From Nitrospiria bacterium (GTDB lineage Bacteria > Nitrospirota > Nitrospiria > JACQBZ01), in assembly GCA_919901335.1 (NCBI GenBank), contig CAKKOZ010000099.1, positions 1-38,358 on the forward strand: a stretch of 38,358 bases of DNA. The letters are read 5' to 3'. Under the pieces are notes generated by a model. It saw nothing but the letters and a program-made list of their open reading frames with translations, ran no database searches and was not told the origin of the DNA. Numbering within the stretch: position 1 is the stretch's first letter; each line of letters starts with the position of its first letter. The position numbers and the translations under genes are program-made. Of the stretch, positions 1,400-31,293 are shown one piece after another.

Positions 1400-2026
1400 G
1401 TGGGACGATATATCGGATCAGTTTGTCGGTTGTGCCGGCGGGAAGGAAATAAATTGTTTCTGAAGGGAAGCCGGTGTTATACGGAGAAATGCGCCATTGA
1501 GCGACGGAACTATTCACCGGGTCAACACGGCCAGGCACGCCCCCGGATATCCGAATATCAAACCCAGCTGCGGGAGAAACAAAAGCTTAAGCGGATCTAT
1601 GGACTTCTGGAGCGCCAGTTCCGCGGGTATTTCGAGAAGGCGGCTCGTAAAAAAGGCATCACGGGAGAAAATCTTCTTCAGATGCTCGAGAGGAGACTGG
1701 ACAACATCGTGTATCGAATGGGTTTCTGTTCGTCCCGGAAGGAAGCCCGGCAGATGGTGAACCACGGACATTTCCTGGTTAATGGGCGGAAGGTGGACGT
1801 GGCTTCTTTTCTTGTCAAAAACGATGATGTGGTTGAACTCAAACCGGCCAGCCGGGAGTTGGCTCAGATCCAGACCTATCTGACGGCAGCGGAGGGGAGA
1901 GGCATTCCTCAATGGCTGGAACTGGACAAGGCTAATTTTAAGGGACGGGTTAAAGCCATTCCGACCAAGGAAGAATTGGCGATGCCGGTGAATGAGCGAT
2001 TGGTGGTGGAACTCTATTCCAGGTAA
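1400..2026 (+). CDS. rpsD: 30S ribosomal protein S4 (zinc-finger C+ form)
   Basis: This 208-residue protein is S4, a primary 16S rRNA binder that nucleates 30S assembly and in many bacteria represses its own operon. Residues 9, 12, 26 and 31 are cysteines, so this is the zinc-binding C+ form. The S4 RNA-binding domain follows at about 96-160, including [10 protein letters not shown] and the segment [13 protein letters not shown]. The start is the GTG at 1400, placed about 10 bases after ATAAGGAGGAAGAC. It is followed after 67 bp by rpoA, the usual partner gene. Confidence 0.97.
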
Positions 2027-17823: not shown

Positions 17824-20202
17824 ATGAAGCGGACAGCGGTTAAATGGCTGGGCATAATCGCAATCGGGGTTGCGGCGGTGGGCTGCAGCGACAATCCGGA
17901 CGTCGCCAGTAATGCGCCGACCCCGAGCGGCAGCGGGGCCTCGGCCACCGTCGCGTCCATCACGGTGACACCGGCCGGGCCGTTTACGTTTGCAGTCGGA
18001 GGGACGCAGCAACTGAGCGCCACCGCGCTTGACGCTTCAAGCAATCCGGTGACCGGGGTTACGTTTATCTGGTCTTCCAGCAATAACGGCGTGGCCACGG
18101 TGAGCAGCACGGGGCTTGTAACCGCGATCGTCCCTGGTGGACCGGTTACCATTACCGCTTCAAGCGGGACGATTACAAGCAATGCGATCAGCGTGACCGT
18201 TTCATGTGCCGGCATACCGTCCAGCACCCCGACCCCACTTCGGGTTACCTTAAACCCTCCGAGCCCGATCAATATCAACGGCACGACCAGCATGGCCGCC
18301 ACCGTGTATGACTGCACCGGCGCCGTGGTCCCGGACGGGATCAGCGTGAGCTTTTCATCGAGTTCCACGACGTTGGGCACACTCAGTCCCGCCTCCGCAC
18401 TGACGACGGGGGGAGGCGGCACGGCGACCGCCAGCTTCACCGCAGGCAGTGTGGCCGGGACGGTCACGATTACGGCTACAGCCGGGGCCGTGTCCAATTC
18501 GGCCACGTTGAGCATCCTATCGTTGCCGGCCGGAAGCATCCAGTTCAATCAGGTGAATCCGCAGGTGATTGGTGTGAAGGGAGCGGGGCAGGTTGAAGTT
18601 TCCGAGGTTTCATTCAGCATTGAGGACACCCAGGGCAATCCGGTGTCCGACGGCAGCGTCACGGTCACGTTCCAGTTTTTAGCCGGTCTTAATCCCGGCG
18701 GCGGGGCCACGATTGATCCCCCCACCGTTGCAACCTTGGGCGGCATCGCAAAGACCTTCGTCAAGAGCGGTTATGTGGCCGGCCCAGTGCGGGTCCTGGC
18801 CTTTTTGGATACGGACAATGACTCGGCATTAGATGCGGGGGAGATCTATAGCACTTCGACGCCGCTTTCGATCGGCGGCGGGGTGCCGTCGGCCCGGTTC
18901 TTCAGCGTCTCGGCCGATGTCCACAACCTGGCCGGCTTCGGGTACGACAATGAAGTGGCGACGATTTTTGTTAATTTGGCCGACCGGTTCGGAGACTTCA
19001 ACGTTCTGGAGGGAACCTCGGTCTCGTTCTACACTGAGGCGGGTGCGATTGACCGTCAGGGCGTCACGAACGATCAGGGACAGACCTCGGTGACCTTCCG
19101 GACACAGAACCGGTGGCCCTTCGACACCGATCCGAGACAGAACCTCAATCCGATCGGAAACGAGGTGCTGCTTTACAATAACCGGAACTGTAATGACCGC
19201 GACGGCACCGAAACTTTTGAAGACTTCGATAATAACGGTGCCTATACTCTTGCTCTCTGTGAGCATTTTAGTGATTCGGACGGCGGCGGCTACAATCTGA
19301 ATGAGCCGAACCCGCGGGACGGATGGGCGAGCGTACTGGCCGTCACTCAGGGGGAGGAGACCTTCTATGACCTGGACGGTGACGGGCTGTATGATTTAGG
19401 CGAGTCGTTCGACGACACCGGTGAGCCGTTTATTGACGAAAATGACAACGGGATGTACGACGACATAGAGACCTTTACCGATGCCAACGCGAACAATTTG
19501 TACGATCCGGGTGAGGCCTTTGTAGATAAAAGTCGCGGCGAACCTTTTCTCGATCTCAATAGTGACGGAACTCGCCAATCAACGGAGCCGTTTACCGATT
19601 TGAACGGGAACTTGATCTATGACAGCAGCGGTTTTACCAATGGGGTCTATGATCGTGGTGAATTTTATGTCGATGTAAACGGCGATAGAAAATGGACGCA
19701 CGGCGACGGCGCCTGGGACTCCAACACCGCGATCTGGGTGGACCTCCGTGGAACGAATGTGACGGGCAAGAAGTCCCAGACCATGGTCTTCACCGGCCCG
19801 CCGGACTTCAGCCTCGAGACGAGCCGCATCGTGGTGGATAATGCCCATTGTTTGCCGACGGTTTCGGGGGGATGCGCTGCCTTTACCGTTCCAAATAACC
19901 AGTGCGCCACCTTTAGGATTTATGTGGCGGATTTCAACAACAATAAGCTATCGCCCGGTTCATCCATCACAGTTACGAAAGGCGGCGCCGGGCTGTTGAC
20001 CGGACCGGATCCGTTGATCCTCGGCGATGCCACCGATCCGGGGCCAACTCAGCTCACTGCCGCACTCTGCGATGAAGACCCTGCCGTGGTTGGAGCGTTG
20101 AAAAGCTCATCGCTAAAGGTGGCCATCACCTGGACGCCGCAGAATGCCGACCCGACGACCTACACCATGTCGGTCTCGGGGAGTGTGGACGCGAAGCCGT
20201 AG
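17824..20202 (+). CDS. Large Ig-like lipoprotein with Asp/Asn-rich putative Ca2+-binding repeats
   Basis: This 792-residue protein has a lipobox AAVGC (Cys 21) and a Ser/Pro/Gly linker. A BIG2-type Ig-like domain follows (about 42-130, ending VTITASSGTITSNAISVTV), then a second Ig-like domain (about 138-232), a third at about 240-340, and another at about 365-440. Residues about 510-634 form a block of irregular repeats of the type Y-D-x-G-E-x-F-x-D-x-N-x-N-G, resembling the calcium-binding loops of dockerin or thrombospondin type-3 repeats. A final beta domain follows. It probably acts as a surface or adhesion protein. A strong Shine-Dalgarno AAGGAGGCGGT precedes the ATG, and a perfect terminator follows. 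Confidence 0.82.
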   Translation: MKRTAVKWLGIIAIGVAAVGCSDNPDVASNAPTPSGSGASATVASITVTPAGPFTFAVGGTQQLSATALDASSNPVTGVTFIWSSSNNGVATVSSTGLVTAIVPGGPVTITASSGTITSNAISVTVSCAGIPSSTPTPLRVTLNPPSPININGTTSMAATVYDCTGAVVPDGISVSFSSSSTTLGTLSPASALTTGGGGTATASFTAGSVAGTVTITATAGAVSNSATLSILSLPAGSIQFNQVNPQVIGVKGAGQVEVSEVSFSIEDTQGNPVSDGSVTVTFQFLAGLNPGGGATIDPPTVATLGGIAKTFVKSGYVAGPVRVLAFLDTDNDSALDAGEIYSTSTPLSIGGGVPSARFFSVSADVHNLAGFGYDNEVATIFVNLADRFGDFNVLEGTSVSFYTEAGAIDRQGVTNDQGQTSVTFRTQNRWPFDTDPRQNLNPIGNEVLLYNNRNCNDRDGTETFEDFDNNGAYTLALCEHFSDSDGGGYNLNEPNPRDGWASVLAVTQGEETFYDLDGDGLYDLGESFDDTGEPFIDENDNGMYDDIETFTDANANNLYDPGEAFVDKSRGEPFLDLNSDGTRQSTEPFTDLNGNLIYDSSGFTNGVYDRGEFYVDVNGDRKWTHGDGAWDSNTAIWVDLRGTNVTGKKSQTMVFTGPPDFSLETSRIVVDNAHCLPTVSGGCAAFTVPNNQCATFRIYVADFNNNKLSPGSSITVTKGGAGLLTGPDPLILGDATDPGPTQLTAALCDEDPAVVGALKSSSLKVAITWTPQNADPTTYTMSVSGSVDAKP

Positions 20203-20386: not shown

Positions 20387-20411
20387 GGTTCCCCATCGTT
20401 TGAAGAATCAC

Positions 20412-21671
20412 ATGATTATAAAAGAGAAACGATTAAAGACCGGCGATGAAAAAATCGCGCAGTTAAAACGTTCGCTGGTCGAAAAATCGTGCGAGCTGGA
20501 GTTGCTTCGCCGGATCAGCGAATCCATCAGTTGTAATCTTGACCTGGATGACGTCTTGAAGCAGATTATTGATATCGTGGTCCAGGTGACGCGAGCGGAT
20601 GCCTGCCTGCTGTATCTTTACGATGATCGAAACAAGGAACTGATTCTTAAGGCGACCAAGAACCCGCATCCCAAACTGATCGGCCGCGCCCGGCTCGAAC
20701 TGGGCGAGGGGATCACCGGTTGGGTGGCGCGCGAACGTAAACTCGTGGCGATTGCAAAGAACGCGAGCGATGATCCGCGGTTCAAGGTTTTTCACAACCT
20801 TCCCGAAGACCGCTACCATGCCTTTCTTTCGGTTCCGGTGATCTCCAAGAACGAGGTGATCGGCGTGATCAACGTACAGCACAAGCGGCCGCATCATCAT
20901 TCAAACAGCGAGCTGGCGCTTCTGACCACGATCGGCCATCAGGTCGGCGGGGCGATCGAAAATGCCCGGCTTTATGAGGAAATGAAGAAAAAGGCGATGC
21001 AGATCGAGACGCTTTCTCAGGTCAGCAAGACGATTGCCTCCAACCGGTACTTGAAGGAAATTCTACAGTTGATCGTCGCGATGACGGCCGAGATGATGAA
21101 CTCGACCATCTGCTCGATCATGCTGTTAGATGAAGAAAGGCAGGAACTCGAGATCGTGGCGACCCAGAGCTTGAGCGAGGACTACCGGATGAAACCGAAC
21201 CTCAAAATCGGCCAGAGCATCAGCGGCCGGGCCGTAAAGGAAAAACGGCCGATCGCCGTTCTCGACGTGACCCGCGAGCCGGGCTACATGTACGCTGATC
21301 TGGCGCGGAAAGAAGGGCTCTGTTCGCTTCTTTCGGTCCCGATGATGATCAAGGACCGCGCCGTGGGCGTGATCAACAGTTACACCTCCCACGAGCACGC
21401 GTTTTACGACGAGGAGATCCATATCCTTCAGGCCGTGGCCAATCAGGCCGCTGTCGCGATCGAGAACACGAAACTGGTCCGCCGGTCGAACGAGATGCAG
21501 GAGGCGCTTGAAAACCGGAAGATTGTGGAGCGCGCGAAAGGCGTCCTGATGCGTGAGAAAAAGATCGCCGAGGACGAGGCCTTCCGCATCATCCAGCGGC
21601 AGAGCATGAATACGCGGAAAAGCATGAAGGAGATCGCCGAGGCCGTCATCCTGGCCTCCGAAATCAAGTAG
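20412..21671 (+). CDS. GAF-GAF-ANTAR domain RNA-binding regulator
   Basis: With the ATG at 20412 (TTG at 20400 is an alternative) the protein has 419 residues. After a short helical lead come two GAF sensor domains (about 25-175 and 195-345; blocks GEGITGWVARERK and GQSISGRAVKEKRPIAV). The C-terminal 55 residues are an ANTAR domain, with RKIVERAKGVLMREKKIAEDE and the closing MKEIAEAV helix. ANTAR proteins bind tandem hairpins in leader RNAs and prevent intrinsic termination, often at nitrogen or ethanolamine genes. The GAF domains replace the receiver or NIT sensors of better-known members. Its targets may include the attenuator-like leader at 23513. Confidence 0.92.
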   Translation: MIIKEKRLKTGDEKIAQLKRSLVEKSCELELLRRISESISCNLDLDDVLKQIIDIVVQVTRADACLLYLYDDRNKELILKATKNPHPKLIGRARLELGEGITGWVARERKLVAIAKNASDDPRFKVFHNLPEDRYHAFLSVPVISKNEVIGVINVQHKRPHHHSNSELALLTTIGHQVGGAIENARLYEEMKKKAMQIETLSQVSKTIASNRYLKEILQLIVAMTAEMMNSTICSIMLLDEERQELEIVATQSLSEDYRMKPNLKIGQSISGRAVKEKRPIAVLDVTREPGYMYADLARKEGLCSLLSVPMMIKDRAVGVINSYTSHEHAFYDEEIHILQAVANQAAVAIENTKLVRRSNEMQEALENRKIVERAKGVLMREKKIAEDEAFRIIQRQSMNTRKSMKEIAEAVILASEIK

Positions 21672-23478: not shown

Positions 23479-23507
23479 TTGACCGCAACCGGCGGCTGTG
23501 TTATAAG
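23479..23507 (+). promoter_or_regulatory. Sigma-70-type promoter of the sigma-54 activator gene
   Basis: The -35 TTGACC (23479-23484) and -10 TATAAG (23502-23507) are separated by 17 bp. The predicted start near 23514 gives a leader of about 86 nt before the ATG at 23600, and that leader contains a terminator. Confidence 0.72.
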
Positions 23508-23512
23508 ACTAC

Positions 23513-23542
23513 AGCACAACGATGTGTTTTGACGAGGGCGTC
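23513..23542 (+). promoter_or_regulatory. Leader hairpins, possible ANTAR antiterminator target
   Basis: Two small hairpins precede the leader terminator. The first (23513-23528) is AGCAC-AACGAT-GTGTT: 5 pairs and a six-base loop with A at position 1 and G at position 4, the pattern known for ANTAR-bound RNAs. The second (23531-23542) is GACG-AGGG-CGTC; its 3' side overlaps the 5' arm of the terminator, so the two cannot form together. Its loop lacks the A at position 1, and the first hairpin lies at the very 5' end of the transcript. The ANTAR link is therefore suggestive only. Confidence 0.4.
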
Positions 23543-23578
23543 TTCTTTCATCCAAGAGAAGACGCTTTTTTATTTTTA
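23538..23578 (+). terminator. Intrinsic terminator inside the leader of the sigma-54 activator gene
   Basis: A 9-bp stem GCGTCTTCT/AGAAGACGC with a 10-nt loop is followed by TTTTTTATTTTTAT. It lies downstream of the promoter at 23479 and upstream of the start codon at 23600, so it would act as an attenuator rather than end a gene. It could also serve as a late terminator for nadE. Confidence 0.8.
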
Positions 23579-23599
23579 TGTAAACGAGCAACGGATCGG

Positions 23600-25165
23600 A
23601 TGGATACGCAGAACACGCCCCTCAAAATTGCGGAGTTGACAGCTCTGTATGAAATCAGCCGTGCGCTTGCCTCTTCGCTGGACCTAAAGGAAACCTCGCA
23701 CAAGATCCTCGAAATTCTATCTTCCGTTCTCGACATGCGTCGAGGCACACTGACGCTGCTCGATCCCGAGACGGATGAGCTGGTGATCGAGACCGCGCAT
23801 GGCCTGACGGAAGAAGAGATCGCACGCGGCCGGTTCAAGGTCGGCGAAGGAGTGACCGGACGTGTTTTCGAGAAAGGCGAGCCGATGATCGTCCCGGACG
23901 TGGGGCGGGAGCCGCTCTTCCTGAACCGGACACGCTCCAGGGGCGATCTTACAAAAGAGCGGATCGCCTTTCTCTGCATGCCGGTAAAAATCCACGGCGA
24001 GACGATCGGGGTCTTAAGCGTGGATCGTCTGTTTAAGAACGGGTCGCCCGATTTCGATGAGGATGTCCGCGTACTGACCGTGGTCACGTCGCTGATCGGG
24101 CAGGCCGTCAAGTTCCAGCAGACCGTTTCACGCGAAAAGCGCGCACTCCTTGAACAGAACATCCAGCTCCAGAGCGAACTGAAAAACCGTTACCGGATCG
24201 GGAATATTGTCGGCCAGAGCAAGGTCATGGATGAGGCGTTCCGATCGGTTCTGCAGGTTTGCAAGTCCAAGGCGACGGTGCTGCTTCGTGGCGAATCCGG
24301 GACCGGAAAGGAGCTGATCGCGCGTGCGATTCATTACAACAGCCCCCGCGCCGAGCGGCCGTTTATCAAAATCAACTGTGCCGCGCTGCCCGAAACGCTG
24401 CTCGAGAGCGAGCTGTTCGGGCATGAGCGCGGGGCCTTTACGGGCGCGACGCAGCTTCGGAAAGGCCGCTTCGAGCTGGCGGACGGCGGGACGCTTTTCT
24501 TAGATGAGATTGGCGACATACCGCTTGCGACGCAGGTCAAACTCCTCCGGGTGCTGCAGGATCAGCGGTTTGAACGCGTCGGTGGATCGCAGACCCTGTC
24601 GGTGGATGTCCGTCTGGTGGCCGCAACCCACCGCAACCTTGAGGCCGCGATCGAGGAGGGAAGCTTCCGCGAGGACCTCTATTACCGCTTGAATGTCGTT
24701 CCGATTTTTCTTCCATCCCTGCGCGAGCGGAAGGAAGACATCCTGCTTCTGATCGAATATTTTCTGTCCCGCCGCAACAAAGAGCATCGCAAGCAGGTCC
24801 GGATCGCTCCGGACGTCTTGAATGTCATGGTCCAGTACCACTGGCCCGGCAACGTCCGCGAGCTGGAAAACTGCATCGAGCGGATCGTGATCATGGCCGA
24901 GTCTCCCGAGATCACATTTCAATCCATGCCCGCCGGAATGACGGCCTATTTTCAAGATGTCCGGGAAGTGACGCGTCCGGCCGCGACGGACAAGCCGACG
25001 CTTCGCACAACGGTGGAGCACCTGGAACGGGAGCAGATGGTCGAGGCCTTGAAGAAATGCGGCGGAATCCGGTCGCGCGCGGCCCGGATACTGGGCATTA
25101 CGCCTCGCCAGATCGGCTACAAAATGAAGAAATACAAAATTGCATCGCATCCGTCAGAGATGTAG
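23600..25165 (+). CDS. NifA-like GAF-AAA+-Fis sigma-54-dependent transcriptional activator
   Basis: With the ATG at 23600 the protein has 521 residues. The domains are a GAF sensor (about 20-170), the AAA+ sigma-54 interaction domain (about 190-430) and a C-terminal Fis-type HTH (about 475-517, [22 protein letters not shown]). The ATPase has Walker A GESGTGKE (231-238) and the sigma-54 contact loop GAFTGA (278-283). The architecture is that of NifA rather than NtrC, as there is no receiver domain. The frame is open upstream to 23522, but that segment contains the leader terminator. It lies just before the sigma-54 promoter at 25288 and is the best candidate activator of it. A leader terminator implies attenuation control. 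Confidence 0.93.
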
Positions 25166-25287: not shown

Positions 25288-25303
25288 TGGCATGAAGGTT
25301 GCT
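25288..25303 (+). promoter_or_regulatory. Sigma-54 promoter of the nitrate/nitrite operon
   Basis: TGGCATGAAGGTTGCT fits the -24/-12 consensus TGGCAC-N5-TTGCW, with GG at 25289-25290 and GC at 25301-25302 (10 bases between, the required spacing). The predicted start near 25314 leaves a leader of only about 14 nt, which still includes the Shine-Dalgarno GGGAG before the ATG at 25328. Confidence 0.88.
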
Positions 25304-31277: not shown

Positions 31278-31293
31278 TGGCATCGGTCTTGCT
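31278..31293 (+). promoter_or_regulatory. Sigma-54 promoter of the porin-amt-glnB operon
   Basis: TGGCATCGGTCTTGCT has GG at 31279-31280 and GC at 31291-31292 with the required 10-base spacing, and it shares TGGCAT and TTGCT with the promoter at 25288. The predicted start is near 31304, leaving a leader of about 118 nt before the porin start. Confidence 0.88.

Follow-up and report, generated by a model that had tools for sequence, protein, structure and literature searches.

The window, i.e., the whole stretch of 38,358 nucleotides analysed here from a nitrogen-metabolising Nitrospirota bacterium, encodes on its forward strand a GAF-GAF-ANTAR protein of 419 amino acids (20412-21671; an alternative TTG start at 20400 is possible) and a sigma-54 activator of 521 amino acids with a GAF-AAA+-Fis architecture (23600-25165; Pfam Sigma54_activat 8.6e-75, GAF 4e-17, HTH_8 9.2e-15), with nadE between the two. 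Just 5' of the ANTAR gene, positions 17824-20202 encode a putative secreted protein of 792 amino acids, in which Asp-rich motifs resembling calcium-binding ones (DLDGDGLYDLGE, DENDNGMYDD) recur. A sequence-only reading had proposed an attenuator-like leader for the activator, comprising a terminator behind a promoter, a hairpin overlapping the 5' arm of the terminator and a preceding hairpin with the loop AACGAT, and had pointed to the ANTAR gene one gene upstream; all these elements were recovered at the positions it gave. The sigma-70 promoter (23479-23507, forward strand) starts 7 bp past the nadE stop codon (23472) and consists of a -35 element TTGACC (23479-23484), a 17-nt spacer and a -10 element TATAAG (23502-23507). 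The transcript is predicted to start at about the 5' edge of the first hairpin, P1 (23513-23528, AGCAC[AACGAT]GTGTT), which was defined by sequence and alignment, has 5 bp including one G-U and presents both A1 and G4 in its hexaloop (23518-23523). A linker of 2 nt (23529-23530; 4 nt with both stems taken as 3 bp) leads to the putative antiterminator hairpin P2 (23531-23542, GAC[GAGGGC]GTC) with 3 bp, G4 and a G at loop position 1. The intrinsic terminator (23538-23578) is formed by the stem 23538-23548/23555-23565 and the T-run TTTTTTATTTTTA, and lies on the same strand ahead of the activator ATG (23600). Since the 3' arm of P2 (23540-23542) sits within the 5' arm of the terminator, the two structures are mutually exclusive. 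An Rfam search of the leader gave no matching family, only chance matches below threshold.

The terminator folded at -15.8 kcal/mol compared with -3.4 kcal/mol for shuffled sequences (z -6.8), the complete leader had a z of -4.9, and all 200 shuffles folded worse than the terminator and the complete leader, respectively. P1 and P2 by themselves exhibited no unusual stability (z -1.2), and minimum free energy folding of the window placed 4-nt loops in both hairpins by an additional A-U or G-C pair within the hexaloop. Thus, the case for P1 and P2 has to be made from conservation and covariation rather than from energy.

Promoter, P1, P2 and terminator were retained in all seven genomes of the family, the genome of the window (G000) and six relatives (G001-G006), with TTGAC and TATAA invariant in the alignment of the seven homologous leaders. 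The gene 5' of the leader is not retained: an ABC-type ATPase gene is found there in G001-G003 and other genes in G004-G006, while nadE ends some 2-3 kb upstream of the leader in G002 and G003. A terminator belonging simply to nadE, the outcome that would have contradicted the sequence-only reading, was therefore ruled out. In the six relatives a P-II gene comes behind the leader, and roughly 20 bp separate it from the activator gene. The P-II orthologue is present in G002-G006, reduced to a fragment of 39 residues in G001, which belongs to the same genus as the window's genome, and absent from the latter. There, the T-run of the leader is joined directly to ATGTAAACG (23579-23587, forward strand), which by junction alignment with L033 corresponds to the final sense codon plus the stop codon of the P-II gene in the relatives. 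From this scar we conclude that the P-II gene was deleted in the window and that the ancestral target was an operon of P-II and activator. The window thus represents a natural variant free of P-II, in which the leader outlasted the gene formerly behind it, and this survival suggests that the activator is the gene worth controlling.

Leaders beyond this family were sought with a scanner requiring two hexaloop hairpins and an overlapping terminator, which gave 2-3 hits by chance in 412 kb of shuffled sequence, and with a covariance model trained on 12 leaders. The scanner detected a leader with a different terminator sequence immediately 5' of the sigma-54 activator in family f9, one ahead of a glnA-activator pair in G008 and one ahead of a molybdopterin-nirB operon in G012. 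The model search, which the sequence-only reading had suggested as a check, extended the set to untrained leaders ahead of activators in G031 and G023, to a leader in G035 (L188; E 0.034) preceding the gene of a molybdopterin oxidoreductase interpreted as an assimilatory nitrate reductase, and to family f14, where the leader lies between the ANTAR gene and nadE on the same strand, approximately 80-110 nt past the ANTAR coding end. The design of P1 and P2 is shared by these families, the terminator sequences are unrelated or partly different. As judged from these sequences, the same switch recurs class-wide ahead of nitrogen-control genes: P-II and activator, glnA and activator (L039), the putative nitrate reductase (L188) and molybdopterin/nirB genes (L040). 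In f8, f9 and f11 the activators that follow the leader measure 326-337 amino acids and consist of AAA+ and Fis-type HTH domains, with no sensor domain present. Among 80 relatives of the activator gene in a public genome collection, a leader was present in one, and this one (L104) is G002 itself. No convincing leader was detected near the ANTAR gene in eight genomes of f2 and f12 (G007, G014, G030, G032, G037, G041, G043, G053; in G030 also by eye), and weak model matches in f2 (L212-L214) had no visible terminator. Some arrangements are less regular. Upstream of the activator in f8 (L022-L026), P2 (GGACGATGACGTCC or near) and the terminator are conserved, P1 is poorly formed or, in L023-L025, would have to enclose some 9 nt in its loop, beginning with ANCG. 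In f14 (L204-L208; genomes G058-G061 and G065) the leader looks doubled, with a second P2-like hairpin GGACGATGACGTCC and its own terminator-like hairpin after the first terminator and before nadE; the leader of G012 (L040) also looks tandem.

The assembled 24 leaders presented paired bases in 100 % of the P2 cells and 93 % of the P1 cells. Changes on both sides were observed in five of the eight base pairs of P1 and P2, and four of the five P1 pairs had compensatory changes. None of 500 shuffles reached the observed pairing or covariation, and sliding the partner by 1-3 columns lowered every measure. Hexaloops were compatible with all 24 leaders, and some of the loops are unable to close further (ATTGGC, AACGAG, AAAGCA). 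Position 4 was a G in all 48 loops and the closing pair a C:G in all 48 stems, although model and scanner in part select for both features. Position 1 was always a purine, with A in 15 of 24 P1 loops, A in five of 24 P2 loops and G in the remaining 19. Every G at position 1 was followed by an A at position 2 (28/28), a pattern that may reflect relaxed or shifted recognition by the ANTAR proteins of this class of Nitrospirota. In the window, P1 carries A1/G4 and P2 G1/G4, so that the strict A1/G4 rule of 2012 (PMC3369931) is missed at one of four residues; in the Enterococcus faecalis system an A1 to U exchange in the P2 loop impaired EutV induction (PMC3369931). A later definition permits hexaloops with one point variation and linkers of 2-25 nt (PMC8164766), and the window leader lies within it with one deviating residue and a linker of 2-4 nt. 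Both hairpins have at least 3 bp, and the terminator overlaps the 3' arm of P2 as in ANTAR-target leader RNA. Linkers in E. faecalis measure 5-12 nt and a linker of 3 nt failed; the 4-nt linker of the window is shorter than this range, and the 24 leaders span 3-10 nt.

The proposed antiterminator protein has two GAF domains and a C-terminal ANTAR domain (PF03861; 1.8e-20, 72.9 bits against a curated cut-off of 27.3). Its residues R369, R374, K376 and F391 align with R340, K345, K347 and W362 of NasR (PMC7496416): the RNA-contacting R340, K347 and the aromatic residue 362 are kept and K345 is replaced by R. NasR R366 and N373 are conserved neither in the window protein nor in Rv1626. It is the only ANTAR protein of the genome, which likewise yielded a single covariance-model match. 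Within the class, 189 of 270 genomes encode an ANTAR protein, nearly always in one copy (two matches in two genomes). Model matches at E<=0.01 were obtained in 23 of the 270 genomes searched, all of them encoding ANTAR, a co-occurrence with a hypergeometric P of 1.8e-4 that ignores kinship. The remaining 166 of the 189 ANTAR genomes had no match at E<=0.01, thus the model is narrow or targets differ. In G025 (L184, L028) both GAF domains are retained but the protein stops before the ANTAR domain, and the activator of this genome is leaderless; domain and leader were apparently lost together.

The leader is highly likely to be a transcription attenuator under ANTAR control that acts on the sigma-54 activator. 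This reading draws on its anatomy and conservation, on covariation, on its genomic linkage to and joint occurrence with a single ANTAR protein, and on the sigma-54 promoter matches described below. The leader in the window would very probably stop transcription early unless bound by the only ANTAR protein of the genome. RNA polymerase would start near 23513 and by default stop at 23566-23578 as the terminator hairpin forms. An active GAF-GAF-ANTAR dimer, responding to a probably nitrogen-related signal, would hold P1 and P2; with 23540-23542 occupied in P2, the terminator could not form fully and transcription would read through into the activator gene. This picture agrees with the mechanism and the targets published for ANTAR proteins (PMC3369931, PMC7496416).

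The activator in turn may open the sigma-54 promoters of a nitrite-reductase operon and a porin-amtB-glnK cluster. Two exact sigma-54 promoter matches were found in the window at an expectation of 0.17, both on the forward strand. The first, TGGCATGAAGGTTGC (25288-25302), precedes an operon for a molybdopterin protein and a NirB-type nitrite reductase (from 25328) and is kept at the same position in relatives; it lies just 25 bp from the start codon, and no ANTAR leader was found at this operon of the window. The second, TGGCATCGGTCTTGC (31278-31292), lies 5' of the porin-amtB-glnK genes. The sequence-only reading had suggested a cascade from ANTAR protein to sigma-54 activator to nitrate operon. 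Its leader step is supported by conservation and linkage, and for the second step the promoter sequences are the evidence at hand. The structural operons of G012 and G035, read by eye, have an apparent sigma-54-like promoter (CGGCACGTTGATTGC and AGGCATATGGATTGC, respectively) in addition to an ANTAR leader. In G035 (L188, about 1400-1720, minus strand) the promoter AGGCATATGGATTGC is followed by the ANTAR-type leader and the molybdopterin oxidoreductase gene, an arrangement that may constitute a feed-forward loop. We put forward tentatively that across the class the role of a sensor domain is taken over by ANTAR antitermination on the mRNA of the activator itself, with feed-forward loops in some genomes. 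If true, the activity of a bare AAA+-Fis activator may depend only on the ANTAR protein letting its message be completed, and a structural nitrogen operon that has a sigma-54 promoter as well as a second ANTAR leader would close such a loop.

Alternative explanations have to be seen against these observations. ANTAR proteins in mycobacteria were reported to control translation (PMC8164766), and the protein may bind the leader and act mainly on translation or mRNA stability; equally, control in the window may have been decaying since the loss of P-II, as no other leader of the family is so irregular, with its G-U pair in P1 and its 4-nt linker, and the ribosome-binding region of P-II went with the deletion. 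We consider this unlikely, because the P2-overlapping terminator is intact, the conserved promoter elements remain and some 58 nt lie between P2 and the start of the activator. An attenuator governed by another factor, i.e., a ribosome on a leader peptide, a metabolite riboswitch or a different RNA-binding protein, is very improbable. The layout of terminator and antiterminator by itself names no ligand, and P1 contains an ATG (23522), however frame and spacing past this ATG vary among relatives, and a leader peptide starting there was rejected for its non-conserved frame. The lack of an Rfam match, the ANTAR signature of dual hexaloops, invariant G4 and C:G closing pairs, and the linkage of the leader to ANTAR, together with which it is apparently lost, also speak against a different factor. 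The notion of a mere nadE terminator, with the activator expressed from elsewhere or by read-through, finds some appeal in the 66 bp separating the terminator from nadE in the window and is scarcely credible in view of the strong promoter in between, the same promoter-leader-terminator arrangement behind other genes in six relatives, and the conserved, covarying P1 and P2.

An ANTAR-controlled attenuator in this position would extend a well-studied RNA switch to the Nitrospirota. The phylum is absent from the phyla listed in a commentary (PMC3369936), and no Nitrospirota case was found in the papers on ANTAR leaders examined, a scope that does not extend to the hit lists supplementing the 2012 work. 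As each genome has a single ANTAR protein, there is no ambiguity about the presumed partner, and the cascade becomes testable as a whole. The EutV-controlled eut leaders of E. faecalis (Ramesh et al. 2012, PMC3369931) share with the window leader two small hairpins, read in the window with six-base loops, G4 in both loops, the AC/GU closing pairs in P1 and a terminator overlapping P2. They differ from the window in the G at position 1 of its P2 loop, in the regulator, a phosphorylated receiver in EutV and a one-component GAF-GAF-ANTAR protein here, and in the target, here the gene of a transcription activator. NasR and the nasF leader of Klebsiella oxytoca have in common with the window ANTAR antitermination in nitrogen metabolism and the residues R340, K347 and aromatic 362; NasR senses nitrate via a NIT domain and controls its structural operon directly, whereas control in the window would be exerted on the sigma-54 activator (PMC7496416, PMC3369936). 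The 2012 predictions place ANTAR leaders 5' of genes for P-II, ammonium transporters, nitrite reductase and glutamine synthetase, the same gene classes as behind the leaders of the Nitrospirota set. The proposed target stands at another level of control, being a sigma-54 activator for nitrogen genes instead of a single metabolic operon. In the nitrogen-fixation cascade of Geobacter sulfurreducens, GnfM/GnfR, the sigma-54 activator reportedly acts above the ANTAR protein; in both systems the two types of regulator would belong to one nitrogen cascade, with the order reversed in the window.
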